From Defluviimonas salinarum (GTDB lineage: Bacteria; Pseudomonadota; Alphaproteobacteria; Rhodobacterales; Rhodobacteraceae): a stretch of 64,000 nucleotides of DNA. How positions within the stretch are numbered: position 1 is the first letter of the stretch; the number at the start of each line of letters is the position of its first letter. The DNA is taken from contig NZ_JAPDOG010000005.1 of assembly GCF_026013545.1 (NCBI RefSeq), forward strand, positions 124,001-188,000, in the 5' to 3' direction. Shown in pieces: positions 3,924 to 47,717 of the stretch. Made by a program: the position numbers and the translations under genes. The notes under the pieces were generated by a model. It made no database searches. It worked only from the letters and a program-made list of their open reading frames with translations, and was not told where the DNA came from.

Positions 3924-4017
3924 AGCGCCGCTTCCCTCGGGTCACAATGCACCGATTAGCGGCTTTTCCCCGGGAGCGCGGTTTTGTAGGGTCGCAGCGA
4001 GGATCGAGGGGGTGCGC

Positions 4018-6663
4018 GTGAACGCTCAGGACGGCAACGTGACGCCGATGATGGCGCAGTTTCTGGAGATCAAGGGGCGTTATCCGGACGCGCTCCTTTT
4101 CTACCGGATGGGCGATTTCTACGAGATGTTCTTCGATGATGCCGAGGCGGCGGCTTCGGCGCTCGACATCGCGCTGACCAAGCGCGGCCAGCATCTCGGC
4201 CAGGACATTCCGATGTGCGGCGTCCCGGTGCATTCCGCCGAGGGTTATCTTCTGACGCTCATCCGCAAGGGCTTCCGCGTCGCCATCGCCGAGCAGATGG
4301 AGGACCCGGCCGAGGCGAAGAAACGCGGCTCGAAATCGGTCGTGGCGCGCGACGTGGTGCGACTGGTGACGCCCGGAACGCTGACCGAGGAGTCGCTTCT
4401 GGAGGCACGGCGCCACAACTTCCTCGCCGCCTGGGCCGAGGTGCGCGACACGGCCGCCCTCGCCTGGGTCGATATCTCCACCGGCGAGTTCCGCGTGATC
4501 CCCTGCCCGATCTCCCGGCTCTCGCCGGAACTCGCGCGACTTGGCCCGCGCGAGGTCGTCGTCAGCGAGACGAAAGAGGCCGACCTGGCTGGATTAGTGT
4601 CTGATTCCGGGGCCGCGATGACGCCGCTCTCGCGCGGGTCCTTTGACAGTACCGGGGCCGAGAAACGCCTTTGCGAGCTTTTCGACGTCGCCACGCTCGA
4701 CGCCTTCGGCAGTTTCGACCGGGCCGAGGCTTCGGCGATGGGCGCGATCGTCGACTATCTCGACCTCACCCAGCGCGGCAAGCTGCCGCTCCTGCGCCCG
4801 CCGGTGAAGGAAATGCCGGGCGGCTCGGTGCAGATCGACGCCGCGACGCGACGCAATCTGGAGATCACCCAGTCGCTCTCGGGCGGTCGCGACGGCTCGC
4901 TGATCGCCGCGATCGACCGCACCGTGACCGCAGGCGGAGCGCGGCTTCTCGAACGGCGGCTCTCCGCCCCCTCGCGCGACCTCGCCGAGATCCGCGCGCG
5001 GCTCGAAGCGGTGCGGTTCCTCGCGGGCGAAGCCCGGCTCGCCGAGGCGCTGCGCGCCGATCTCAGGAAGGCGCCCGACATCGACCGGGCACTGTCGCGG
5101 CTCGCCCTCGACCGGGGCGGACCGCGCGATCTCGCCGCGATCCGCGCCGGGCTCGCCGAGGCCGGCTCCATCGCCCGGCGGCTTGACGGAGACATACCGG
5201 CCCGGCTCGCCGGCGCCGCCAAGGATCTCGTCGGTTTCGGCGATCTCGTTGCCTATCTCGATGCAGCCCTGGTGGCGGAGCCGCCGCTTCTGGCCCGCGA
5301 CGGCGGCTTCATCGCGGCCGGCCACAATCCGGAACTCGACGAGGCGCGGCAACTGCGCGACGAGGGTCGCGGCGTGATCGCTCGGATGCAGGCCGACTAT
5401 ATCACCGAGACGGGTATCCAGAGCCTCAAGATCAAGCACAACAACGTGCTTGGCTATTTCATCGAGACGACCGCGACCCATGCCGAGAAGATGCTCTCGG
5501 CGCCGCTGAACGAGACCTTCATCCATCGCCAGACCACGGCCAACCAGGTGCGCTTCACCACGGTCCCGCTGTCGGAGATGGAGACCCGGATCCTCAACGC
5601 CGGAAACCTCGCGCTCGAGATCGAAAAAAGGCTCTATGACGGCCTGAAAGCGATGGTTCTCGACACCTCCGTCCTCATCTCGCAAGCGGCCCGTGCGCTC
5701 TCGGAGATCGACCTCACCGCCGCCTTCGCCGATATCGCTCGCGGCGAGGACTGGTGCGAACCCACGGTCGACGACAGCCGCGCCTTCGAGATCGAGGGCG
5801 GGCGGCATCCCGTCGTGGAACGCGCGCTGAAACGCACAGGCGAGCCCTTCATCGCCAATGACTGCCTGCTGACCAGCGGCGAGACTCCGGCGATCTGGCT
5901 CCTGACCGGCCCGAACATGGCCGGCAAGTCGACCTTCCTGCGCCAGAACGCGCTCCTCGCGCTCCTCGCGCAGGCCGGCAGCTTCGTCCCGGCGCGCCGC
6001 GCCCACATCGGCCTCGTCAGCCAGCTCTTCAGCCGGGTCGGCGCGGCCGACGACCTCGCCCGCGGTCGCTCCACCTTCATGGTCGAGATGGTCGAGACGG
6101 CGGCGATCCTCAACCAGGCCGACGACCGGGCGCTCGTCATCCTCGACGAGATCGGCCGCGGCACCGCGACCTATGACGGCCTTTCGATCGCCTGGGCGAC
6201 GCTCGAACACCTGCATGACGTGAACCGTACAAGGGCGCTCTTCGCCACCCATTACCACGAGATGACCGCGCTCGCGCACAAGCTCGACGGGGTCGAGAAC
6301 GCCACTGTCGCGGTCAAGGAATGGGAAGGCGAGGTGATCTTCCTGCACGAGGTCCGAAAGGGCGCGGCTGATCGCAGCTACGGCGTGCAGGTCGCTCGCC
6401 TCGCGGGATTGCCGACGGCCGTTGTCGAACGGGCAAAGATCGTGCTGGACGCGCTGGAGAAAGGCGAACGCGAGGGCGGAACCCGCAAGCACACGCTGAT
6501 CGACGACCTGCCGCTCTTCAGTGCCGCGCCCGCCGCCACGGCGCGGCCGGTCAAACAGGAGTCGCAGCTGGAAGACCGGCTGTCCGCCCTTCATCCCGAC
6601 GAGATGACCCCACTCGAAGCCCTGGCCGCGCTCTACGAGCTCAAGGCCCTGACCGGCGACTGA
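4018..6663 (+). CDS. mutS: DNA mismatch repair ATPase MutS
   Basis: Recognises mismatches and small loops and starts methyl-independent repair with MutL. The mismatch-reading FYE motif is at residues 34-36, the Walker A loop GPNMAGKST at 631-639, followed by DEIGRGTATYDG and the ABC-type dimer motif near ATHYHE. I start it at the GTG at 4018 (881 residues) because a purine-rich GAGGGGG lies just upstream; further in-frame codons upstream give no family-like sequence. It is transcribed alone and ends at a GC-rich hairpin facing grpE. Confidence 0.95.
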   Translation: MNAQDGNVTPMMAQFLEIKGRYPDALLFYRMGDFYEMFFDDAEAAASALDIALTKRGQHLGQDIPMCGVPVHSAEGYLLTLIRKGFRVAIAEQMEDPAEAKKRGSKSVVARDVVRLVTPGTLTEESLLEARRHNFLAAWAEVRDTAALAWVDISTGEFRVIPCPISRLSPELARLGPREVVVSETKEADLAGLVSDSGAAMTPLSRGSFDSTGAEKRLCELFDVATLDAFGSFDRAEASAMGAIVDYLDLTQRGKLPLLRPPVKEMPGGSVQIDAATRRNLEITQSLSGGRDGSLIAAIDRTVTAGGARLLERRLSAPSRDLAEIRARLEAVRFLAGEARLAEALRADLRKAPDIDRALSRLALDRGGPRDLAAIRAGLAEAGSIARRLDGDIPARLAGAAKDLVGFGDLVAYLDAALVAEPPLLARDGGFIAAGHNPELDEARQLRDEGRGVIARMQADYITETGIQSLKIKHNNVLGYFIETTATHAEKMLSAPLNETFIHRQTTANQVRFTTVPLSEMETRILNAGNLALEIEKRLYDGLKAMVLDTSVLISQAARALSEIDLTAAFADIARGEDWCEPTVDDSRAFEIEGGRHPVVERALKRTGEPFIANDCLLTSGETPAIWLLTGPNMAGKSTFLRQNALLALLAQAGSFVPARRAHIGLVSQLFSRVGAADDLARGRSTFMVEMVETAAILNQADDRALVILDEIGRGTATYDGLSIAWATLEHLHDVNRTRALFATHYHEMTALAHKLDGVENATVAVKEWEGEVIFLHEVRKGAADRSYGVQVARLAGLPTAVVERAKIVLDALEKGEREGGTRKHTLIDDLPLFSAAPAATARPVKQESQLEDRLSALHPDEMTPLEALAALYELKALTGD

Positions 6664-8483: not shown

Positions 8484-9194
8484 ATGCGACCCTCTGGCCG
8501 GAAACTCGACGAGATGCGGGCGATCTCGATCGAAACGGGTGTCACCAAACACGCCGAGGGATCCTGCCTGATCCGTTGCGGCGACACCCATGTGCTCTGC
8601 ACCGCGACGATCGAGGACAAGGCGCCCTCGTTCCTGAAGGGCACCGGGCTCGGCTGGGTCACGGCCGAATACGGCATGCTGCCCCGCGCCACCAACACCC
8701 GCAATCGTCGTGAGGCGGCCGCCGGCAAGCAATCGGGAAGAACTCAAGAAATTCAAAGGCTTATCGGTCGTGCGCTGCGAGCCGGCGTGGACCGGGTGGC
8801 GCTTGGTGAGCGCCAGATCGTCGTGGATTGCGACGTGATCCAGGCCGACGGAGGCACCCGCTGCGCGGCGATCACCGGCGGTTGGGTGGCGCTCAGGCTG
8901 GCGGTCAACAAGCTCCTCAAGGCCGGGGTCGTGACCTCGGATCCGATCGTCGATCATGTGGCCGCGGTTTCTTGCGGTATCTATGCCGGCCAGCCGATCG
9001 CCGATCTCGATTACGCCGAGGACAGCGAGGCGGGAACCGACGGCAATTTCATCCTCACCGGACGCGGGCGTCTGATCGAGGTGCAGATGTCGGCCGAGGG
9101 CGCGACCTTCTCGCGCGACGAGATGGGCCGGCTTCTCGATCTCGCCGAGGCCGGGATCGCACGACTGGTCGAGGCGCAGAAGGCAGCGATCTGA
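8484..9194 (+). CDS. rph: Ribonuclease PH
   Basis: Phosphorolytic 3'-5' exoribonuclease that trims tRNA precursors. The 236-residue protein has the family's start ([11 protein letters not shown]), the arginine-rich segment [10 protein letters not shown] and the phosphate-binding stretch [25 protein letters not shown] lies nine bases before the ATG. It is the first gene of a plus-strand operon rph-rdgB-ridA-hemW-ybaN in which each junction overlaps or is very close. Confidence 0.96.
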
Positions 9195-9811
9195 TGCGGA
9201 AGTTCTCGGGCAAGCGGCTGCTGGTGGCGACCCACAACAAGGGCAAGCTGGCCGAGATCGCGGCACTTCTGGAACCCTACGGCATCGCCTGCGTCAGCGG
9301 CGGCGAGATGGGGCTGCCGGAGCCCGAGGAAACCGAGACGACCTTTGTCGGCAATGCCCGCATCAAGGCCCATGCCGCCGCAATGACGACAGGGCTCCCC
9401 GCGCTCGCCGATGACAGCGGCATCGAGGTCGACGGTCTTGGCGGCGCGCCGGGCGTCTATACCGCCGATTGGGCGATGACGCCTTCGGGGCGGGATTTCG
9501 TGCAGGCCATGACCCGGACCTGGGATGAGCTGGAGCGCGCGGGCGCCCCCTACCCCCGCCGTGCGCGGTTCCGGGCGGCGATGGTTTTGGCCTGGCCGGA
9601 CGGTCACGACGAGGTGTTCGAAGGCAAGGTAGAGGGCCAGGTCGTCTGGCCAATGCGCGGGGCCCAAGGACACGGCTACGATCCGATGTTCCAGCCGGAT
9701 GGCTACGACATGACTTTCGCGGAGATGGATCCGGCCAAGAAGAACCGGATCAGTCACCGCGCTGATGCGTTCGGAAAGCTGGTTGCCTGTTTCGAGGGAA
9801 GCGACGCATGA
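9194..9811 (+). CDS. rdgB: Non-canonical purine NTP pyrophosphatase (ITPase/XTPase)
   Basis: Removes dITP, ITP and XTP from the nucleotide pool. The 205-residue product has the HAM1/RdgB signatures ATHNKGKLAEI near the start, ADDSGIEVD in the middle and SHRADAFGKL near the end. The start codon shares one base with the rph stop (TGATG), so the two are translationally coupled. Confidence 0.95.
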   Translation: MRKFSGKRLLVATHNKGKLAEIAALLEPYGIACVSGGEMGLPEPEETETTFVGNARIKAHAAAMTTGLPALADDSGIEVDGLGGAPGVYTADWAMTPSGRDFVQAMTRTWDELERAGAPYPRRARFRAAMVLAWPDGHDEVFEGKVEGQVVWPMRGAQGHGYDPMFQPDGYDMTFAEMDPAKKNRISHRADAFGKLVACFEGSDA

Positions 9812-10182
9812 AGCGGATATCGACCGGATCGCCGTTCGAAGCGACGATGGGTTATAGCCGGGCAGTCGTGAAGGGTGGCTGGTGTTTTGTCTCGGGCGTG
9901 ACCGGCTATGATTACGCCACGATGACGATGCCGGAGCAAATCGCAGATCAGGCACGGAACTGCTTCTCGACGATCCGCGATGTCCTGGGTGAGGCTGGAT
10001 TCACCCTCGAGGATGTGGTGCGAGTGCAGTATACGGTGACCGATGCCGCGCTGGTCGAGGACCTGGTGCCGGCGCTCGGAGAGGCGTTCGGCGAGATCCG
10101 GCCGGCGGCGACCATGGTGGTCGCGGGGCTGATCCGGCCAGAAATGAAGGTCGAGATCGAGGTCACCGCCTTCAAGGGGTGA
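9808..10182 (+). CDS. RidA/YjgF family protein (reactive enamine/imine deaminase)
   Basis: A 124-residue single-domain Rid protein. Archetypal RidA hydrolyses reactive enamines released by PLP enzymes. The conserved arginine is present in the segment EIRPAATMVVAG, and EIEVTAFKG is the usual C-terminal strand. The start overlaps the rdgB stop by four bases (ATGA). The position between rdgB and hemW fits general metabolite repair, but the exact substrate cannot be read from sequence. Confidence 0.85.
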   Translation: MKRISTGSPFEATMGYSRAVVKGGWCFVSGVTGYDYATMTMPEQIADQARNCFSTIRDVLGEAGFTLEDVVRVQYTVTDAALVEDLVPALGEAFGEIRPAATMVVAGLIRPEMKVEIEVTAFKG

Positions 10183-10208
10183 AGACGGGTCGGACCGGAG
10201 TGGCATTG

Positions 10209-11363
10209 ATGGAAGACTGGCAGCACGGTGGTTTTGGGCTTTATTTGCACTGGCCGTTCTGCGCGTCTAAATGCCCCTATTGCGATTTCAACTCCCACGT
10301 CGCGGCCGAGATCGATCAGGAGCGCTGGAAGCGGGCCTATCTCTCGGAGATCGAGCGGGTCGGACGCGAAACCGAGGGTCGTATCCTCAACACCGTATTC
10401 TTCGGCGGCGGCACGCCGTCGCTGATGGCGCCCGAACTGGTGGCGGCGATCCTCGACAAGGTGCGTGCGACCTGGAGGATGGCGAACGATCTCGAAGTGA
10501 CGCTCGAGGCCAATCCCGGCAGCGTCGAGGCCGGGCGGTTCCGCGGCTATGCCGAGGCCGGGGTCAACCGGATCTCGATGGGTATTCAGGCGTTGAACGA
10601 CGTTGATCTGAAGCGACTCGGGCGGCTGCATTCGGTCACGGAGGCGCGTGCGGCGTTCGATGTGGCGCGCGATGTTTTCGCGCGGGTGAGCTTCGATCTC
10701 ATCTACGCGCGTCAGGATCAAAATCTGCGCGCTTGGGAGACGGAACTTGGCGAAGCGATGGCGATGGCGGTGGATCACCTGTCGCTCTATCAACTGACGA
10801 TCGAGGACGGGACGGCCTTCGGCGCCCGCCACACGGCGGGTGGTTTGAAGGGATTGCCCGAGGACGATCTGTCGGCAGATATGTATCTGAAAACACAAGA
10901 TATTCTAGGACCCTCCGGTATGCCCGCCTACGAGGTGTCGAACCACGCGCGAGATGGGGCGGAGAGCCGGCACAACCTGATCTACTGGCGCTATGGCGAT
11001 TACGCCGGGATCGGGCCGGGAGCACACGGCCGGCTGACGCTCAAAGGACAGAGGTTTGCGACGGAAACGCCGCTCGCTCCTTCCAGATGGCTACAGCAGG
11101 TCGAGGCGACAGGCCACGGAGAGTCTCCGCGCGAAGCTATTTCGGAGGCCGATCAGGCCGGCGAATACCTGATGATGGCGCTGAGGCTGGCCGAGGGCAT
11201 GGATATGAACCGGTATGCGCAGCTTGCTGGAGTCGGGTTGGATGAGATCGCCGTGGACCGACTTGAAGAGCTCGGGATGCTACGCCGCGATAGCACGCGA
11301 ATTGCCGCGACGGCAGCAGGTCGTGCCGTATTAAACGCCGTAATTCGCGAGTTGATGCCATGA
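10209..11363 (+). CDS. hemW: HemW, radical SAM haem chaperone (formerly coproporphyrinogen oxidase-like)
   Basis: The 384-residue protein has the radical-SAM cluster ligands CxxxCxxC (Cys18, Cys22, Cys25) and the GGGTPS SAM loop. HemW proteins bind haem and deliver it to respiratory targets; the HemN-type residues for coproporphyrinogen III oxidation are not expected, and I would not call it an oxidase. I chose the ATG at 10209 (CGGAG 8 bases upstream, then DWQHGGFGLYLHWPFC); a GTG at 10179 overlapping the previous stop adds ten residues and is an alternative. Confidence 0.9.
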   Translation: MEDWQHGGFGLYLHWPFCASKCPYCDFNSHVAAEIDQERWKRAYLSEIERVGRETEGRILNTVFFGGGTPSLMAPELVAAILDKVRATWRMANDLEVTLEANPGSVEAGRFRGYAEAGVNRISMGIQALNDVDLKRLGRLHSVTEARAAFDVARDVFARVSFDLIYARQDQNLRAWETELGEAMAMAVDHLSLYQLTIEDGTAFGARHTAGGLKGLPEDDLSADMYLKTQDILGPSGMPAYEVSNHARDGAESRHNLIYWRYGDYAGIGPGAHGRLTLKGQRFATETPLAPSRWLQQVEATGHGESPREAISEADQAGEYLMMALRLAEGMDMNRYAQLAGVGLDEIAVDRLEELGMLRRDSTRIAATAAGRAVLNAVIRELMP

Positions 11364-39889: not shown

Positions 39890-40924
39890 TCAGTTCTGCT
39901 GAAGCGCCGCAGCCCATTCGTCCAGGAACGCCTGCCGCTTGATCGCGTCGAGGAAGACCAGAAGGCCGGGGTCGAGGCGCATCGGCCGGAGATGCGGGCC
40001 ACGCGACAGCGCGACCTCGTCGATCGGCGGCAGGCCGGCCTCCTCGCCGACGAGCCGCCGGCCCTCGGCGCCGAGAAGGAAATCGAGAAACCCGCCGCCC
40101 AGCGCGGGATCGGGCGCGCCGACCGGGATGAGCCCGGTGCGCAGGAGCGTCAGCGTGTAGTCCTCCAGCTCGACCACCGCCGCGTCGTCGTCGCTGGCGA
40201 GCCGCGGCCCGGCATAACTGCCGAGCACATTGTAGGCGAGCGCGAGCCGGCCCTGTTCCAGGTCCGTGATCATCGCGTTCGACGAGGTGTAAAGCCGTGG
40301 CGCGAGGCCGCCCATCACCTCGGCGAGGCGCCAGAAACTGTCGGACTGCCGCGCGTCCTGCGTGGCGAAAAGGTAGCCCGCACCGGAGAGTTCGGGATCG
40401 TAGGTTCCGATCCGGCCGCGGAACCGCTCGGGATCGTCGCGCAGCATGTCGATCAGGTCGCGCCGAGTCTGCGGCAGGGAAAGGCCGCCGATCGCCCGGC
40501 GCGAGGCGATCAGCACGACGTTTTCCTGTGCGAAGGCAAAGAGCCGGTCCTGCCAGTGCGCCCAGCCCGGCAACGCATCGGTGGCGGCAGAGCGGTAGGG
40601 AGCAGCGAAGCCGTCATTGGCAAGTTTCATCTGCAGATCCATTGCCGAGGAGATGACGAGGTCGAAGGCCGCGCTCTCGTCATGGATCGCGGCGAAGACC
40701 TCCTGCGAATTGGCGACCGTGTAGTGGACTTCGACATCCGGAAAACGCTTCTGGAACGCCGCGATCACCGGTTTCAGAACGCCCGTGTCGGTGGTCGACA
40801 GGATTGCCAGCTCGCGTCGTTCGGTGCCGGGCGCGGGAAAGCGTACCTCTTCCTCGACGGTGAATCCGGCGGCCGAGCCGGCGATGCCGAGGATCAGGCC
40901 GAGGGCAAGTAGAGCCGCGCGCAT
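39890..40924 (-). CDS. Periplasmic ABC-type binding protein paired with TctDE
   Basis: A 344-residue exported type II binding protein (signal MRALLALGLILGIAGSAAG pattern, then ELAILSTTDTGVLKPVIAAF), of the iron(III)/sulfate-like solute-binding group. There is no ABC permease or ATPase gene near it. Its 5' end overlaps the sensor kinase gene by 31 bases, in the order tctD-tctE-binding protein. This suggests that it presents ligand to the kinase rather than to a transporter. The ligand is unknown. Confidence 0.85.
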   Translation of the reverse strand: MRAALLALGLILGIAGSAAGFTVEEEVRFPAPGTERRELAILSTTDTGVLKPVIAAFQKRFPDVEVHYTVANSQEVFAAIHDESAAFDLVISSAMDLQMKLANDGFAAPYRSAATDALPGWAHWQDRLFAFAQENVVLIASRRAIGGLSLPQTRRDLIDMLRDDPERFRGRIGTYDPELSGAGYLFATQDARQSDSFWRLAEVMGGLAPRLYTSSNAMITDLEQGRLALAYNVLGSYAGPRLASDDDAAVVELEDYTLTLLRTGLIPVGAPDPALGGGFLDFLLGAEGRRLVGEEAGLPPIDEVALSRGPHLRPMRLDPGLLVFLDAIKRQAFLDEWAAALQQN

Positions 40925-42261
40925 GTGCCGCCTCCTTCGCGTTCGGTGAGGTCAAAACGCCCGCCATGGGCTGCGGCGACCTCGGCGACGATGGTCAGGC
41001 CGAGGCCAGATCCGATCACGTCGCGCGCGTTCTCTCCTCGCGCGAAGCGCTTGGTGAGCCGCCCCGGTTTCTGGCCCGACAGTCCGCGGCCCCGGTCGGC
41101 GACCTCGATCAGCACCGGATCGCCCGGGCGGAGCGCCAGATCGATCATGGTTTCCGGGGGCGAATACTTGATCGCGTTGTCGATGAGATTGCGAAGCGCC
41201 GCCTCGATCAGGGCGCGGTCGCCCTGCACACGCGCCGGTTCGGCGGTGACGCGCAGAGTCAGGTCTTTGAGGTCGGCCGTGGGCAGGAACGCATCGGCCT
41301 GGGCGGCGAGGAGCTTCGCGAGATCCACGCTTTCGTCCGCGAGCCGGTCGGAGCGGGCGACGACGGTGGCATGGTCGAGAAGTTGGCCCGCTGAACGGCT
41401 GCTTTCCTCGACCGCGCGGATCACCGCGCGGAGCGACTCGCGCATCTCCTCCGACTGGCTCTGGCGCAGGGCGATCTCGGCCCGGGCGCGGACCGTGGCC
41501 AAGGGCGTGCGGATATGGTGGGCCGCCTCGGCGATGAAGGTCTCGGTCCGGGCAAGCGCGCCGCGCAGCCGGGCGATGAAGCCGTTCAGCGCGGTGATGA
41601 GCGGCCTGAGCTCCACCGGTGTCGGATGATCGACGGCGCGCAGGTCCTGCGGGCCCCGCCGCGCCACTGCGGCGGCAAGCCGGTTGATCGGGCCGAGCAC
41701 GCTGCCCGCTGTGAGCAGCGACAGAGCTGCCGCCAGTACGAAGGATCCGAGCCCGATCGCGGCGGCGCGCTGGGCGACGCGCTGGGCGATCGCCTCCTGC
41801 CCCTGCCGGGTCTGGGCGACCATGACGAGCACCGGCACCGGCTTGCGCGCCACCAGCACCATGCGGGCGACCGCGGCGACGCGGACCTCGGTGTCGCGAT
41901 AGGGCGAGGTGTAGAAGACCGGCGCCACCGCCGCGCCAGCCTCGGGCGGTAGCGGCAGGTCGTCATACCCGGTCAGTGTGAGCCCGCGTGCGTCGATCCG
42001 GTAGAACACCCGGTCGGCCGAGATCGAGCCGAGGATCGAGAAGGCCTCGTAGGGCAGATCGACGCTGACCCCGTCATCCCCGCCTTGCAGGCTCTCGGCG
42101 ATGGCCAGTGTCGCCGCGCCGAGCACGCCGTCCTGGCTCGCCTCGGCTGCCTGGTCGGCGACCGTGCGGACGGTGAAATAGAGAACGATGGCAAGCACGG
42201 CGGCGATGCCCAGAAGCTGCAGGACAAGCCTGAGGCGTAGGGAAAGCGGTGCGCGCCTCAT
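40894..42261 (-). CDS. tctE: TctE-type sensor histidine kinase
   Basis: A 455-residue membrane kinase: membrane segment near 10-30, a periplasmic domain of about 130 residues, a second membrane segment near 165-187, a HAMP-like linker, the phospho-acceptor histidine in AHHIRTPL (His248), and an ATPase domain with NLIDNAIKYSP, DRGRGLSG and GSGLGLTIV. It overlaps tctD by four bases (ATGA) and the binding-protein gene by 31. Expected to control the divergent tctCBA operon. Confidence 0.9.
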   Translation of the reverse strand: MRRAPLSLRLRLVLQLLGIAAVLAIVLYFTVRTVADQAAEASQDGVLGAATLAIAESLQGGDDGVSVDLPYEAFSILGSISADRVFYRIDARGLTLTGYDDLPLPPEAGAAVAPVFYTSPYRDTEVRVAAVARMVLVARKPVPVLVMVAQTRQGQEAIAQRVAQRAAAIGLGSFVLAAALSLLTAGSVLGPINRLAAAVARRGPQDLRAVDHPTPVELRPLITALNGFIARLRGALARTETFIAEAAHHIRTPLATVRARAEIALRQSQSEEMRESLRAVIRAVEESSRSAGQLLDHATVVARSDRLADESVDLAKLLAAQADAFLPTADLKDLTLRVTAEPARVQGDRALIEAALRNLIDNAIKYSPPETMIDLALRPGDPVLIEVADRGRGLSGQKPGRLTKRFARGENARDVIGSGLGLTIVAEVAAAHGGRFDLTEREGGGTCARLYLPSA

Positions 42262-42923
42262 TCCGCGGTCAACCGGTAGCCGAGGCCGCGCACCGTCTCG
42301 ATCCGCGCGCCGGAGCCTTCGAGCTTCTTTCTCAACCGCGCGACATAGACCTCGATCGCGTTGTCGGTGACGCTTTCGGCGTAGGAAAACAGCCGGTCGC
42401 AGATCTGCGATTTCGAGAATATGCGCTCTGGCGCGGCGAGAAGGATTTCGAGAAGCCGGAGCTCGCGGTTCCTAAGTTCCCGCATCTCGCCGCTGACGAC
42501 GAGGCTTGCGTTGAGCGGGTTGAAGGTGAGCCCGGCATAGTGCTGCACGGTTTGCAGCGCATTGCCGCGCCGCCGCAGCACGGCTCGGCAGCGGGCCTCA
42601 AGCTCGGCGAAATCGAAGGGCTTGGTGACGTAGTCGTCCGCCCCGAGGTCGAGCACGTCGACCCGGTCCGACACCTCCGCGCGCGCGGTCATCACGATGA
42701 TCGGCGTATCGCGCCCCGAGCGGCGCTCGCGGCGCAGGAAGTCGCGGCCGTCGCCGTCGGGCAGCGAGATGTCGAGCAGGATGAGGTCGTAGGATGCCGC
42801 CGCGAGGCAGTCGCCCGCCTCGGCGAGCGAGGCGGCGGGATCGACCGCATGGCCGTCAAGCCGGAGCCGCTCGGCAACCGACTGTGCCAGATCGGGATTG
42901 TCCTCGACGAGAAGGAAGCGCAA
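42258..42923 (-). CDS. tctD: TctD-type OmpR-family response regulator
   Basis: A 221-residue regulator: receiver domain with phospho-acceptor Asp51 (LILLDISLPDGDG) and Lys101 (DDYVTKPFD), then an OmpR-type winged helix (LRNRELRLLEILLA, YVARLRKKLEGSGARIETVR). No ATG fits; I start it at a TTG (42923), which begins RFLLVEDN and has AGGGGG eight bases upstream. A GTG at 42932 is the alternative. Divergent from tctC, with 124 bases between. Confidence 0.9.
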   Translation of the reverse strand: MRFLLVEDNPDLAQSVAERLRLDGHAVDPAASLAEAGDCLAAASYDLILLDISLPDGDGRDFLRRERRSGRDTPIIVMTARAEVSDRVDVLDLGADDYVTKPFDFAELEARCRAVLRRRGNALQTVQHYAGLTFNPLNASLVVSGEMRELRNRELRLLEILLAAPERIFSKSQICDRLFSYAESVTDNAIEVYVARLRKKLEGSGARIETVRGLGYRLTAE

Positions 42924-43047
42924 GGCACCCACCCCCTGGTGACAGGTTGCTGTCAGCTTTTCAGCGAATCGTGGGTCTTGCAAGGGGATCGGCACCGCGC
43001 CGCTTTGGCGTGCGTGTCCGGAAAGAAAACACACACGGGAGGAATAC

Positions 43048-44016
43048 ATGACATTCAGGGCAATGAAGGTGTTCGGCACGAGCGCCGCGATCGGTCTCAT
43101 GGCGGCCTCGTCGGTCTGGGCGACCGAATGCATCGCGCCGGCCAATCCGGGCGGCGGCTGGGACTTCACCTGCCGCCAGGTCGGCAAGATCCTGTTCGAC
43201 ATCGGTCAAGTCGACCAGCCGGTGCAGGTTACCAACATGGCCGGTGCGGGCGGCGGGCTCGCCTTCTCGACCGTGGTCAACGAGCGCAACACCGACGAGG
43301 ACCTCATCATCGCCGCATCTTCTGCAACGACGACGCGGCTCGCGCAGAACGCCTATGGCGGGGCGACCGCCGATCAGGTGCGCTTCGTCGGCGCGATCGG
43401 CGCCGATCCCGGCGTGATCGTGGTCGCGGCCGACAGCCCGTTCCAGACGCTCGGCGATCTCGTCGAGGCGGTCAAGGCCGATCCGGGCTCGGTCGCCTTC
43501 GCGGGCGGTTCGGCGGCGGGCGGCTTCGACCACATGAAGCCCCTGCAGGTGCTGAAGGCCGGCGGCTTCACCGACATCACCAAGGTCAAGTATATCGGCG
43601 TCGATGGCGGCGCCGACGCGATCACCCAGACCGTCGGCGGCTTCACCCAGGCGATGACCGGCGACATGTCCGAGATCGTCGGCTTCATCAAGTCGGGCGA
43701 GGTCCGGGCGCTCGCGGTCCTGACCGAGGAGCGGGTGCCGGGCTTCGAGGACATCCCGACCGCGAAGGAGCAGGGCTTCGACGTCGTCGCGGTGAACTGG
43801 CGCGGACTCTATGTGCCGAAGGGCATTTCTGACGAGGCCTTCGCCAAATGGGCCGGGCGGCTTCAGGCCGTGGCCGACAGCGCCGAGTGGAAAGAGGCGA
43901 TGGCGGCGAACGGACTCGCGCCCTTCACCAAGGTCGGCGACGATTTCCAGAGCTGGATCGATCAGGTCGTGGCCGACACGACCGAGCTTTCCAAGGAAAT
44001 CGGAGTGATCCAGTGA
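43048..44016 (+). CDS. tctC: Tripartite tricarboxylate transporter binding protein TctC
   Basis: Periplasmic binding protein of a TTT importer, usually for di- or tricarboxylates. The 322-residue product has a signal peptide cut near SVWA, the family opening CIAPANPGGGWDFTCR, NMAGAGGGLAF and the later GFDVVAVNWRGLYVPKG. GAGGA lies eight bases before the ATG. First gene of tctC-tctB-tctA-atuA-like-DUF4387. Confidence 0.92.
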   Translation: MTFRAMKVFGTSAAIGLMAASSVWATECIAPANPGGGWDFTCRQVGKILFDIGQVDQPVQVTNMAGAGGGLAFSTVVNERNTDEDLIIAASSATTTRLAQNAYGGATADQVRFVGAIGADPGVIVVAADSPFQTLGDLVEAVKADPGSVAFAGGSAAGGFDHMKPLQVLKAGGFTDITKVKYIGVDGGADAITQTVGGFTQAMTGDMSEIVGFIKSGEVRALAVLTEERVPGFEDIPTAKEQGFDVVAVNWRGLYVPKGISDEAFAKWAGRLQAVADSAEWKEAMAANGLAPFTKVGDDFQSWIDQVVADTTELSKEIGVIQ

Positions 44017-44456
44017 TCACCGGCGACCGGATCTTCGGTCTGGTCGTGATCCTCGTGGCGCTGGCCTATGTCGCCAGCGCCACGCAGATCCAGGTCAGCT
44101 TCCTTGCCGACCCGGTGGGATCGAAGACCTTCCCCTACATCATCGGCACGATTGGCGCGATCTGCGGCCTCTACATGGTGATCCGTCCCGATCCGGACCC
44201 GGAATGGCCCGACCTGCCGACGCTCGGCCGGCTCGGCTTCGCGCTCCTGGCGCTCGTCGCCTATGCCTACATGCTGAAGCCCCTGGGCTTCCTCATCCCG
44301 ACAGCCATCGTCGCGGCGATCCTGAGCTACCAGATCAGTCCGCGACCCCTGCCCGCGATCCTCTCCGGCCTCGGCCTCTCGGCCGGGCTCTACGTGGTCT
44401 TCAAATTCCTCCTTGGGCTCAGCCTCACCGGCCTGCCCAAGGTCATCATGGGCTGA
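44013..44456 (+). CDS. tctB: Tripartite tricarboxylate transporter small membrane subunit TctB
   Basis: A 147-residue protein with four predicted helices, fitting the TctB family (GSKTFPYIIGTIGAICGLY, MLKPLGFLIPTAIVAAILSY). It starts at a GTG overlapping the tctC stop (GTGA). Confidence 0.88.
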   Translation: MITGDRIFGLVVILVALAYVASATQIQVSFLADPVGSKTFPYIIGTIGAICGLYMVIRPDPDPEWPDLPTLGRLGFALLALVAYAYMLKPLGFLIPTAIVAAILSYQISPRPLPAILSGLGLSAGLYVVFKFLLGLSLTGLPKVIMG

Positions 44457-44465
44457 GACAACGTC

Positions 44466-45986
44466 ATGGACCTTATCTCCAACCTCGCGCTCGGCTTCTC
44501 GATCGCGCTGTCGCCTTGGACGCTGATGCTTGCCGTGATCGGCGCCTTCGTCGGTACCATCATCGGCGCCTTGCCGGGCCTCGGCCCGTCGAACGGCGTG
44601 GCGATCCTCATTCCCCTGGCCTTCACAATGGGCCTTGATGCGACCTCGGCGCTGGTGCTGCTGACGAGCGTCTATTACGGCGCGATGTATGGCGGGCGGA
44701 TCTCCTCGATCCTGCTCAACATCCCCGGCGACGAGCCGGCGCTGATGACCACGCTCGACGGCTATCCGATGGCCAAACAGGGGCGCGCCGGCGATGCGCT
44801 GGTGATCTCGGGCGTGGCGTCCTTCGTCGGCGCCTTCATCGCTACGATCGGGCTGGCGATCATGGCGCCGATGCTGGCGCGGGTGGCCTATCTGTTTGGC
44901 CCGGCGGAGTATTTCGCGCTCTATCTCCTCGCCTTCTGTACCCTCGGCGGCATCGCCTCGAAGAACCAGGCCAAGGCCGCGCTCGCCTCCTGCATCGGGC
45001 TCGGCATCGCGATGATCGGGCTCGACAACACGTCCGGCATGCCGCGCTTCACCTATGGCAACCTGCACCTGATGGACGGGGTGGACTTCCTCGTCGCCAT
45101 CGTCGGGCTTTTCGCCATCGCAGAGGTGTTCTTCTTCATCGAGAGCCACGGCAAGGAAAGCGCCATCGGTGTCAAGCTGGAGAAGATCACCATCCCGGTG
45201 AAGGACATCGTCGGTTCGACCGGCGCGATGCTGCGCTCGACCGTAATCGGTTTCTTCGCGGGCGTGCTGCCCGGCGCGGGCGCCTCGCTCGGCTCCTTTA
45301 TGGCCTATGTGGCGCAGAAGGCGGCCGACCCCGACAAGGCAAGCTACGGCAAGGGCAATCCAAAGGGCGTTGCCGCGCCCGAGGCCGGCAACAACGCCGC
45401 GGCCGGCGGCGCGCTGGTGCCGATGCTGACGCTCGGTGTGCCGGGGTCGGGGACGACGGCGGTGCTCCTGGCGCTCCTGATGACGCTGAACATCACGCCG
45501 GGGCCGACGCTCTTCACCGACCGGCCCGAGGTGGTCTGGGGTCTCATCGCCTCGCTCCTCATCGCCAATATCGTGCTTCTGGTGATGAACGTGCCGATGG
45601 TGAAGATCTTCGTGAAGGTCCTGACCGTGCCGGCCTGGGTGCTTCTGCCGGGCGTCACGATGGTCTCTTTCGTCGGCATCTACTCGCTGACCGGAAGCTA
45701 CTTCGACCTCGTCCTGATGATCGCCTTCGGCGCCCTTGGCTACGTGCTGCGCAAGCTCGACATCCCGACCGTGCCGGTGATCCTCGGCATCCTTCTCGGC
45801 AACCACATGGAGGACAGCCTGCGCCGCGCGATGGTGATCTCGGACGGCGACTGGACCTTCCTCTTCTCCTCGCCGATCTCGATCGGCCTCTGGATTGCCG
45901 CCATTGCCGGGTTTGTCGCACCGATCTTCCTGCGCGGGATATTGAAGAAGCCCGAGATCCGCGACGCCGACGAGCTGGTGGACTGA
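44466..45986 (+). CDS. tctA: Tripartite tricarboxylate transporter large membrane subunit TctA
   Basis: A 506-residue permease with about eleven helices. The duplicated family motif is visible as GALPGLGPSNGVAILIPLAF near the start and GVLPGAGASLGSFMAYVAQK in the second half, with PKGVAAPEAGNNAAAGGALV after it. Nine bases follow tctB; the stop shares one base with the next ATG. Confidence 0.94.
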   Translation: MDLISNLALGFSIALSPWTLMLAVIGAFVGTIIGALPGLGPSNGVAILIPLAFTMGLDATSALVLLTSVYYGAMYGGRISSILLNIPGDEPALMTTLDGYPMAKQGRAGDALVISGVASFVGAFIATIGLAIMAPMLARVAYLFGPAEYFALYLLAFCTLGGIASKNQAKAALASCIGLGIAMIGLDNTSGMPRFTYGNLHLMDGVDFLVAIVGLFAIAEVFFFIESHGKESAIGVKLEKITIPVKDIVGSTGAMLRSTVIGFFAGVLPGAGASLGSFMAYVAQKAADPDKASYGKGNPKGVAAPEAGNNAAAGGALVPMLTLGVPGSGTTAVLLALLMTLNITPGPTLFTDRPEVVWGLIASLLIANIVLLVMNVPMVKIFVKVLTVPAWVLLPGVTMVSFVGIYSLTGSYFDLVLMIAFGALGYVLRKLDIPTVPVILGILLGNHMEDSLRRAMVISDGDWTFLFSSPISIGLWIAAIAGFVAPIFLRGILKKPEIRDADELVD

Positions 45987-47350
45987 TGCAAGAGACACGC
46001 GTCCTGATCCCGACCGGCGCCCTGGGCCTCGGCTATGACCGAGCGGCGCTGGCGCGCGGGATCGCGGCGAAGCCGCATATCATCGCCGTCGACGGCGGCT
46101 CGACCGACAGCGGCCCGGCCTATCTCGGCCGGGCCGCGTCGAAATACTCCCGCGCCACGACGCGGGCGGAGTGGCGCGACCTGATGCAGGCGCGCGCCGA
46201 GGCAGGCGTGCCCCTGATCATCGGCACGGCGGGCACCTGCGGGGCCGATGCCACCGTCGACTGGCTTTTTGACATCACCCGGGACCTGGCGGCGGAGCTG
46301 GGCCAGAAACTCACCGTGACCCGGCTCTATTCCGGCCAGAACCCCGCCGAGATCGCCGCCGCCTTCGACGCAGGCCGGATCACCGACCTGCCCGCCGCGC
46401 CCGGGATCGACGCCGACACCATCCGCGCCTGCAGCAATATCGTCGCCCTCGCCGGCGCCGAGCAGGTGGCCGCCGCACTCGCCACCGGCGCCGACATCGT
46501 CATTGCCGGCCGGACCACCGACACGGCGATCATCGCCGCCCTGCCGATCGCGCGGGGCTGTCATGGGGGCGCCGCCTGGCACGGCGCGAAGATCGGGGAA
46601 TGCGGAGCGCTTGCCACCACTCACCCCGCCTCGGGCACGATCCTGATCACCTTCGACGGCACCGGCTTCACCGTCGACCCCATGGCTCCTTCCGCCCGTG
46701 CCACGCCCTACACGGTCTCGGCGCATATGCTCTACGAGAATTCCGACCCGTTCCTCCTCTACGAACCGGGCGGCGTTCTCGACGTCACTGATGCGACCTA
46801 TGCCGCGCTCGACGACCGTAGGGTGCGGGTCGAGGGCTCGGTCTGGCGGCCGGGACCCTATACCGTGAAACTCGAAGGCGCCCGCATCGCCGGATACCAG
46901 ACCGTCAGCCTGACGCTCCTGCGCGACCGCCGCTATGTCGCGAACGCGACTGGCTGGGCGGCCGAAGTCGCGGCCCGCGCGCGCGCGGATGTGGGCGCGC
47001 GGATGGGTCTTGCCGCCGACGCCTTCGAGATCGAACTCAGGCTCATCGGCCGCGACGCCACGCTCGGCCCCCTGGAACCCCCCGGTCCGGTCCCCGCCGA
47101 AATCGGCGTCCTCGCCATCGCCACCGCGCCCTCCGAAGCCGAGGCCGCCGAGATCGGCAAGATCCTCAATCCCTATCTCCTGCACCATGCGTTGACCGAG
47201 GACGAGCCGATGCCCACCTTCGCCTTCCCCTTCTCGCCCGCCGAGATGAGCCGCGGCGCCCTCTACGAGTTCTGCCTACACCATGTCATGGCGCTCGACG
47301 ACCCGATGGCGCCGTTCCGCATCGTCACCGACGAGGTCGGCCATGGTTGA
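45986..47350 (+). CDS. AtuA-like protein (DUF1446)
   Basis: A 454-residue cytoplasmic protein of the DUF1446/acyclic-terpene-utilisation AtuA family: VDGGSTDSGPAYLGR near the start, IIGTAGTCGAD, IVIAGRTTDTA and LYENSDPFLLYEPGG. The enzymatic reaction of the family is not established. It is coupled to tctA by TGATG and overlaps the next gene by eight bases, so it probably acts on what TctCBA imports. The name AtuA does not imply terpene use here. Confidence 0.85.
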   Translation: MQETRVLIPTGALGLGYDRAALARGIAAKPHIIAVDGGSTDSGPAYLGRAASKYSRATTRAEWRDLMQARAEAGVPLIIGTAGTCGADATVDWLFDITRDLAAELGQKLTVTRLYSGQNPAEIAAAFDAGRITDLPAAPGIDADTIRACSNIVALAGAEQVAAALATGADIVIAGRTTDTAIIAALPIARGCHGGAAWHGAKIGECGALATTHPASGTILITFDGTGFTVDPMAPSARATPYTVSAHMLYENSDPFLLYEPGGVLDVTDATYAALDDRRVRVEGSVWRPGPYTVKLEGARIAGYQTVSLTLLRDRRYVANATGWAAEVAARARADVGARMGLAADAFEIELRLIGRDATLGPLEPPGPVPAEIGVLAIATAPSEAEAAEIGKILNPYLLHHALTEDEPMPTFAFPFSPAEMSRGALYEFCLHHVMALDDPMAPFRIVTDEVGHG

Positions 47351-47645
47351 GATCGGCCAGATCGCCGCGAAGGTACGCTCCAAGAATGCCGGCCCGTTCT
47401 GGCTGACGATCGACATTTTCTGCCGGAACAGGGTCGATTTCGAACGGATCTCGACCGGCCTTGAAACAGACAGGATCGCCGCCCGCTTCCGCGCCGATCC
47501 CGCACTGATCAAGCGCTTCGACATCGCCGAACTGAACGTCGTCAAGCTCTCGCTGCCGCGCCCCGCCGTGCAGGGCACGCGCCCCGACCGCGACATGCAC
47601 GGCGCCGCCTGGGCCGTGCTCGTCGAGGAGATGGAGGTCGACTGA
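47343..47645 (+). CDS. DUF4387 protein (AtuA-like ferredoxin-fold domain)
   Basis: A 100-residue protein of the DUF4387 family, recognised by IGQIAAKVRSKNAGPFWLTI, RFDIAELNVVKLSLPRP and the QGTRPDRDMHGAAWAVL stretch. In many genomes it follows a DUF1446 gene, and in some it is fused to it, suggesting two parts of one enzyme. It overlaps the DUF1446 gene by eight bases and closes the operon before a hairpin at 47681. Confidence 0.85.
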   Translation: MVEIGQIAAKVRSKNAGPFWLTIDIFCRNRVDFERISTGLETDRIAARFRADPALIKRFDIAELNVVKLSLPRPAVQGTRPDRDMHGAAWAVLVEEMEVD

Positions 47646-47650
47646 CCCCA

Positions 47651-47703
47651 CTTTCTGTCTGGAAATACTCCGCAGGGGGTCCGGGGGACGCGACGTCCCC
47701 CGG
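47651..47703 (+). repeat. GGAAATAC-hairpin intergenic repeat, copy 2
   Basis: CTTTCTG, then GGAAATACTCC, a GGGGG tract and a hairpin, the same arrangement as at 6684-6730. It too lies between convergent genes (DUF4387 and idi). Confidence 0.65.
47681..47703. terminator. Hairpin between the DUF4387 gene and idi
   Basis: A perfect 10-base-pair stem CCGGGGGACG / CGTCCCCCGG with a CGA loop, 35 bases after the DUF4387 stop and 14 before the idi end. No T-run; symmetrical, so usable from both directions. Confidence 0.6.
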
Positions 47704-47717
47704 CCGCCGGGGCCAGG

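Follow-up and report, generated by a model that had tools for sequence, protein, structure and literature searches.

An acid importer operon of Defluviimonas salinarum carries a likely CmlAB-type lyase formed by AtuA and DUF4387

Citramalate lyase CmlAB is the closest described relative of a gene pair, AtuA (DUF1446) and DUF4387, that closes an acid importer operon in the stretch of Defluviimonas salinarum DNA analysed here (assembly GCF_026013545.1, contig NZ_JAPDOG010000005.1, positions 124,001 to 188,000; these 64,000 nucleotides are referred to as the window). The PDB entries 9erq and 9evf were deposited as 'Citramalate lyase, subunit A (cmlA)', of the AtuA family, and 'subunit B (cmlB)', of DUF4387, and 9evf, released 2025-10-08, is entitled 'Citramalate lyase - ADP - pyruvate complex'. 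ECs_0760 (E 1.3e-291) and ECs_0759 (E 5.2e-57) of Escherichia coli O157:H7 are nearly identical to the crystallised pair; they sit in a cluster with glutamate mutase, methylaspartate ammonia-lyase and fumarase. An excerpt of PMC4682846 (2015) notes the DUF1446 gene of that cluster without a function and calls the fate of citramalate unclear; going by that excerpt, citramalate cleavage was the missing step of the cluster, which counts towards the reading proposed below. The existing annotations of ECs_0760 as 3-methylaspartate ammonia-lyase and of ECs_0759 as acyl-CoA synthetase (L003:21934-23618) were set aside as misannotations, both proteins being nearly CmlA and CmlB. A search of the open-access literature for papers on CmlAB or DUF4387 found none, an absence that proves little. 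The Klebsiella plasmid pHNLC3, on which there are resistance genes too, carries a further pair of the CmlA type (L016:8986-17045; 55% identity to E. coli CmlA), accompanied by genes for aldehyde dehydrogenases and for a fumarate hydratase.

Three other systems bear on the locus. The long AtuA of acyclic terpene utilisation is homologous to the large subunit (hhalign 99.5% over 330 columns), and its proposed chemistry likewise frees acetate from a tertiary 3-hydroxy acid. Unlike the AtuA of the window (454 amino acids), it has about 600 amino acids, a C-terminal domain of its own and a coenzyme A (CoA) thioester as substrate; the 16 long frames collected, two of them the same gene, measure 597-697 amino acids from stop to stop. 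A clear link between DUF4387 and this C-terminal domain was sought and not found, the resemblance being weak (probability 11%, P 6.5e-4). In the portion of PMC4847356 consulted, AtuA is the acetate-releasing lyase of terpene degradation, among enzymes 'characterized or tentatively identified', while the corresponding portion of PMC4097962 gives the same step to LiuE. The Salmonella TctCBA importer with its TctDE regulators shares with the window all three importer families and divergent two-component regulators, and its TctA is 51% identical. Salmonella TctC binds citrate. Citrate/citramalate lyase CitDEF, of the acyl carrier protein type, resembles the window pair in the overall reaction type predicted for the latter, yet it is built from other protein families.

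We propose that the window encodes a self-contained module for uptake and cleavage, in which an acid, most likely citramalate, would be imported and then split by a CmlAB-type lyase; we place the probability of this reading at roughly 0.7. The order tctC-tctB-tctA-AtuA-DUF4387, all on the forward strand, was read and translated directly, and the junctions reported by an earlier, sequence-only reading (three overlaps, of 4, 1 and 8 bases, and a single gap of 9 bases) proved exact. All three subunits of the tripartite tricarboxylate transporter are present, each above its Pfam cut-off:

43048..44016, + strand: tctC, periplasmic acid-binding protein (PF03401, 96.5 bits against a curated cut-off of 27), with a GGAGG ribosome site upstream
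44013..44456, + strand: tctB, small membrane subunit with a GTG start (PF07331, 73.1 bits against 29.1), overlapping tctC by 4 bases
44466..45986, + strand: tctA, large membrane subunit (PF01970, 497.1 bits against 28.9), 9 bases after tctB
45986..47350, + strand: AtuA/DUF1446, CmlA-like large lyase subunit (PF07287, 77.2 bits against 22.8), overlapping tctA by 1 base
47343..47645, + strand: DUF4387, CmlB-like small lyase subunit (PF14330, 76.4 bits against 27), overlapping AtuA by 8 bases

NCBIfam models gave no match to any of the five proteins at E <= 0.01. TctC has relatives in the PDB (best 25hk, E 3.4e-33); none was found there for TctA.

The pair had been called uncharacterised, a label that no longer fits, as homologues of both proteins stand in the PDB as citramalate lyase. 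The two chains of 9erq/9evf are the only PDB sequence relatives of either protein at E <= 0.001: AtuA matches 9erq_A over residues 5-441 (phmmer E 8.6e-74) and DUF4387 matches 9erq_B (E 4.6e-11), two further DUF4387 matches at E <= 1 being at chance level. The structure prediction that the sequence-only reading had suggested was carried out with AlphaFold2 for each subunit singly, from alignments of 58 AtuA rows (the window and 57 of 80 relatives, out of 81 available rows) and 54 of 81 DUF4387 rows. Both models are confident (mean predicted local distance difference test scores of 91.7 for AtuA and 93.2 for DUF4387) and each fits its own chain of 9evf, which is also the sole Foldseek match in the PDB at E <= 0.001 for each: AtuA with E 7.4e-47 and template-modelling (TM) scores of 0.92/0.91, DUF4387 with E 1e-9 and TM scores of 0.85/0.81. 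Over its whole length the AtuA model superimposes on 9evf_A with a VIA-align Z of 48.0 and a root-mean-square deviation of 2.3 over 448 aligned residues. The secondary fold matches of AtuA (next Z 9.1 over 107, mostly involving residues 300-428) were dismissed as common ferredoxin-like arrangements.

Conservation binds the two genes to each other and, in most relatives, to the importer. We sampled the best 80 of at least 555 confirmed AtuA matches, 62-83% identical to the window protein. In all 80 of them AtuA is followed on its own strand by DUF4387, which lies -17 to +14 bases from the AtuA stop in 79 by script; in L144 the frames (8995-10314 and 10310-10615) likewise abut. An orthologous tctA (at least 70%) stands directly upstream of AtuA in 58 of the 80, and in 42 of these 58 loci the regulator, kinase and binding protein described below are present too. 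A different tctCBA follows directly downstream in 7 of the 80 and a different, divergent tctA occurs in 4, while 11 have no tctA in the available stretch, several being short contigs. Most of the listed loci without a regulator have no flanking frame in clusters shared with other loci, the exceptions being L054 and L056, both of the genus of the window; such unshared flanks favour a five-gene unit that would be a complete module with products entering central metabolism. A close AtuA orthologue (67-85%) occurs in 20 of 21 genomes of the same genus, partially in G006 and G007, and only a 31% paralogue was found in G004, which is 77% complete. In an even sample of the class, 4 of 288 other genomes have an AtuA orthologue of at least 57%; a sample across the phylum gave DUF4387 in 19 of 299 genomes, and each of the 18 such loci other than that of the window has AtuA alongside. 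One of these 18 is a single AtuA-DUF4387 frame (L190, G520) and 17 are adjacent separate frames, which bears out the statement of the sequence-only reading that the two are fused in some genomes. Thus the idea that the two proteins may be one enzyme has held up well: they correspond to two chains of one solved complex, are always adjacent in the examined loci and are once fused. That they together make up a single CmlAB-type enzyme we regard as close to certain, and the gene arrangement as such is not chance.

Upstream of tctC, a regulator operon runs divergently:

39890..40924, - strand: extracellular solute-binding protein (SBP_bac_11, Pfam), closing the divergent regulator operon
40894..42261, - strand: TctE-like sensor histidine kinase (2CSK_N, HAMP, HisKA and HATPase_c, Pfam)
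42258..42925, - strand: OmpR-family response regulator (Pfam, NCBIfam), start placed by eye
42940..42958, + strand: tandem direct repeat TGWCAGSTT-NN-TGWCAGST between the response regulator and tctC, candidate operator

The start codon of the response regulator is uncertain (TTG or GTG near 42925-42934), and its best NCBIfam model is TctD (NF012023), below cut-off at 188.9 against 337 bits. The SBP_bac_11 protein is probably a periplasmic accessory of the sensor. Unlike the Salmonella system, the window adds a solute-binding protein to the regulator operon, carries the direct repeat, for which a search of the Salmonella tct stretch gave no match, and appends a lyase to the importer operon; its response regulator also falls short of the TctD cut-off.

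The direct repeat between regulator and tctC is a new observation. Its half-sites are spaced 11 bases apart, the site at 42940-42958 is the sole exact match in the 5.0 Mb genome, and the shuffled window would be expected to yield 0.02 matches even with up to 2 mismatches. Because the motif was derived from these same loci, the fair contrasts are genome-wide uniqueness and the presence or absence of the regulator. Counted with 25 of 100 loci left out for want of a TctC of at least 60%, the repeat lies at tctC in 56 of the 59 loci that have the regulator and in 0 of the 16 that lack it. Five pairs of loci are duplicates (L051/L069, L057/L070, L060/L071, L059/L072 and L062/L073), all with regulator and repeat; with the duplicates removed the count is 51 of 54. 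The three misses are L065, with a repeat at 3937 that is probably its own copy displaced by an over-long tctC frame, L110, with a relaxed repeat only, at 5999, and L127, in which no repeat was found. Elsewhere in the 1.34 Mb of loci there is one other match, that same L065:3937. The repeat could serve as a genetic marker for tracing the regulon and, via TctC, the acid.

Rearranged loci tie the pair to the same control. The relaxed pattern, fixed ahead of scanning, occurs twice each in L100 (Actibacterium pelagium; 5835 and 8912), L111 (Rhodobacteraceae HIMB11; 5846 and 8923) and L123 (1294 and 4371), that is, at 6 sites in 47 kb versus a background of 1 in 1.62 Mb. The first copy of each lies in the gap between a different tctC and the regulator, the second between the binding-protein gene and AtuA, which places AtuA-DUF4387 in the regulon of the importer; separated from the importer, the pair evidently keeps the same candidate control site. 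The proposal that the pair transforms the acid brought in by the importer has thereby become very likely, through the conserved operon and the operator shared in rearranged loci.

In the model that we favour, a periplasmic acid would activate the divergently encoded sensor system of three proteins (response regulator, kinase and solute-binding protein), which, as the conserved site suggests, would act at the direct repeat upstream of tctC. TctC would then bind the acid and TctAB would import it, whereupon AtuA and DUF4387 may break the C-C bond beside the tertiary hydroxyl of this 3-hydroxy acid, yielding a 2-oxo acid and an acetyl unit without CoA and probably at the expense of ATP. With citramalate as substrate the products would be pyruvate and acetate or acetyl phosphate; if the path runs through an acyl phosphate, acetyl phosphate would result, from which acetate kinase, present in this genome, could by our reasoning regenerate ATP. 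The model is built on the observed operon, the homology, the fold match of each subunit, co-inheritance and operator conservation; the direction of the reaction, its CoA independence and its use of ATP are carried over, with due reserve, from the name and title of 9evf. Citramalate is tentatively our best guess for the substrate, at somewhat less than even odds. That this genome might provide citramalate from glutamate through the methylaspartate route was considered and rejected, a search of the genome for MAAL_C (methylaspartate ammonia-lyase) giving no match at E <= 0.001; CitF was likewise sought in the genome without a match at E <= 0.001. If the chemistry holds, this would be an uncommon CoA-free release of an acetyl unit from a free acid, and domains now annotated 'terpene utilisation' and 'DUF4387' would gain a likely, testable job in many Rhodobacteraceae.

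Several findings weigh against this reading, or at least against citramalate. The 65 alignment columns fixed alike in the window clade and the CmlA clade (fixed meaning at least 97% of 58 window-clade rows and 9 of 9 CmlA-clade rows), among them D36, G38, D41, G43, G175, R176, D179, K202, E205, C206, E251, K295, E297, E372 and H433, join the whole-length fold matches and the adjacent, overlapping genes on the side of likeness to CmlAB. On the other side, each subunit is only about 32% identical to E. coli CmlA and CmlB, and a supported branch (98/90) separates the window clade from E. coli CmlA in a tree of 59 rows, 58 of them different as two rows are the same protein, drawn with a midpoint root for display only and with the L190 row dropped because of a broken match. 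A further 25 columns are fixed differently, some with loss of a positive charge (R307 to Q305, K254 to N252, R393 to N395), so that the frame is shared while the substrate may differ. Moreover, the genes of the E. coli relative belong to a glutamate fermentation cluster instead of following a Tct importer, and the single source for ATP dependence is the title of 9evf. The importer does not fix the acid either. Eight of 49 records of further importer homologues were opened, and in none of the eight does the stretch contain AtuA-DUF4387: four keep the block of regulator, kinase and binding protein with a TctC 54-59% identical, three (L208:2527-8509, L209:2595-8503 and L211:2681-8488; TctC 44-47%) combine the importer with a divergent 3-hydroxy-3-methylglutaryl-CoA (HMG-CoA) lyase and a CoA-transferase, and one is the tctD-tctCBA unit of Salmonella. 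The sequence-only reading had named as adverse a TctC whose common acid is used normally without the pair. Importer blocks that are related, have regulators of the same kind and lack the pair do exist, which goes part of the way, while their TctC is only 54-59% identical, which does not. Two of these regulator-bearing blocks, L204 and L207, have the strict repeat in the gap between regulator and tctC, so the repeat goes with regulator and importer rather than with the lyase alone; it was looked for and not found in the regulator-bearing L205 and L206. The best plasmid-borne relative of the importer, on Paracoccus seriniphilus p599725, does have the pair.

The rival that weighs most keeps the enzyme class and changes the acid: a CoA-independent lyase for citrate (giving oxaloacetate and an acetyl unit) or for a homologue, for instance 2-methylcitrate or homocitrate, fed by a classical citrate-type TctCBA. 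The 51% identity of TctA to the Salmonella protein beside tctD speaks for it, as do the differing substrate-side columns and the citryl-CoA-lyase calls in L111 and L100. In L111 the importer operon runs on into a CoA-transferase and a protein above the equivalog cut-off for citryl-CoA lyase (421 against 261 bits); L100 has a CoA-transferase of the same cluster inside the operon and a citryl-CoA-lyase-type gene (442 bits), likewise called above cut-off, behind DUF4387; and in L141 (Kangsaoukella pontilimi, 514-2621), whose module is arranged as in the window, overlapping frames for both enzymes, assigned by cluster, adjoin the binding-protein gene, the lyase-type protein being 72% identical to that of L111. 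In 3 of the 80 relatives the module thus has beside it two CoA-dependent enzymes that cleave this type of bond, a point that speaks for the favoured reading as well; the L123 stretch is too short to show such genes. Citrate, however, needs no lyase to enter the tricarboxylic acid cycle, which would leave little to be gained from a dedicated aerobic enzyme, and the sole solved relative is named for citramalate. We hold this alternative, and citrate or a homologue as the substrate, to be rather unlikely. It is also conceivable, if on balance doubtful, that the importer-linked clade is a distinct subfamily of ATP-driven, CoA-independent lyases for an acid other than citramalate, such as citrate, working with or instead of the CoA-transferase and citryl-CoA-lyase route within one dedicated two-component regulon.

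Cleavage of an acid like 3-hydroxy-3-methylglutarate into acetoacetate and an acetyl unit, as proposed for long AtuA on a CoA thioester, appears improbable. The three sister importers divergent from HMG-CoA lyase and CoA-transferase would suit it, and there another imported 3-hydroxy acid is probably cleaved by the CoA route; the citrate-synthase-type partners in L100, L111 and L141 point instead to a 2-oxo-acid product, the AtuA step is the one assigned to LiuE in the excerpt cited above, and long AtuA has its own C-terminal domain in place of a separate DUF4387. More improbable still is a pair whose lyase activity has been lost, or whose function is a different one altogether (isomerase or regulatory), and which is merely carried along with the importer. 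The 32% identity, the importer blocks lacking the pair and a lyase activity that is a prediction all leave room for it; against this, both genes and the family-wide columns have been retained, AtuA has a repeat copy of its own before it in rearranged loci, and the pair is linked to a different TctCBA in Shinella and Rhodobacter.

The operon may end shortly behind DUF4387, in a feature that stands between this gene and a convergent isomerase gene:

47676..47708, + strand: strong G+C-rich inverted repeat without a T-run, possible transcript end (fold of 47645-47715, z-score -2.48)

To its right follow the convergent isopentenyl-diphosphate isomerase and then housekeeping genes, named by eye. Three loci of the same genus (L195, L196 and L197) have a second paralogue of AtuA with about 30% identity to that of the window, and a DUF4387 frame is called in L196 and L197; a search of the window's own genome found no such paralogue. 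In an alphaproteobacterial metagenome-assembled genome (L118:10575-15077), a Cas9-like frame and two small Cas1/Cas2-like frames, assigned by eye, lie shortly behind AtuA-DUF4387.

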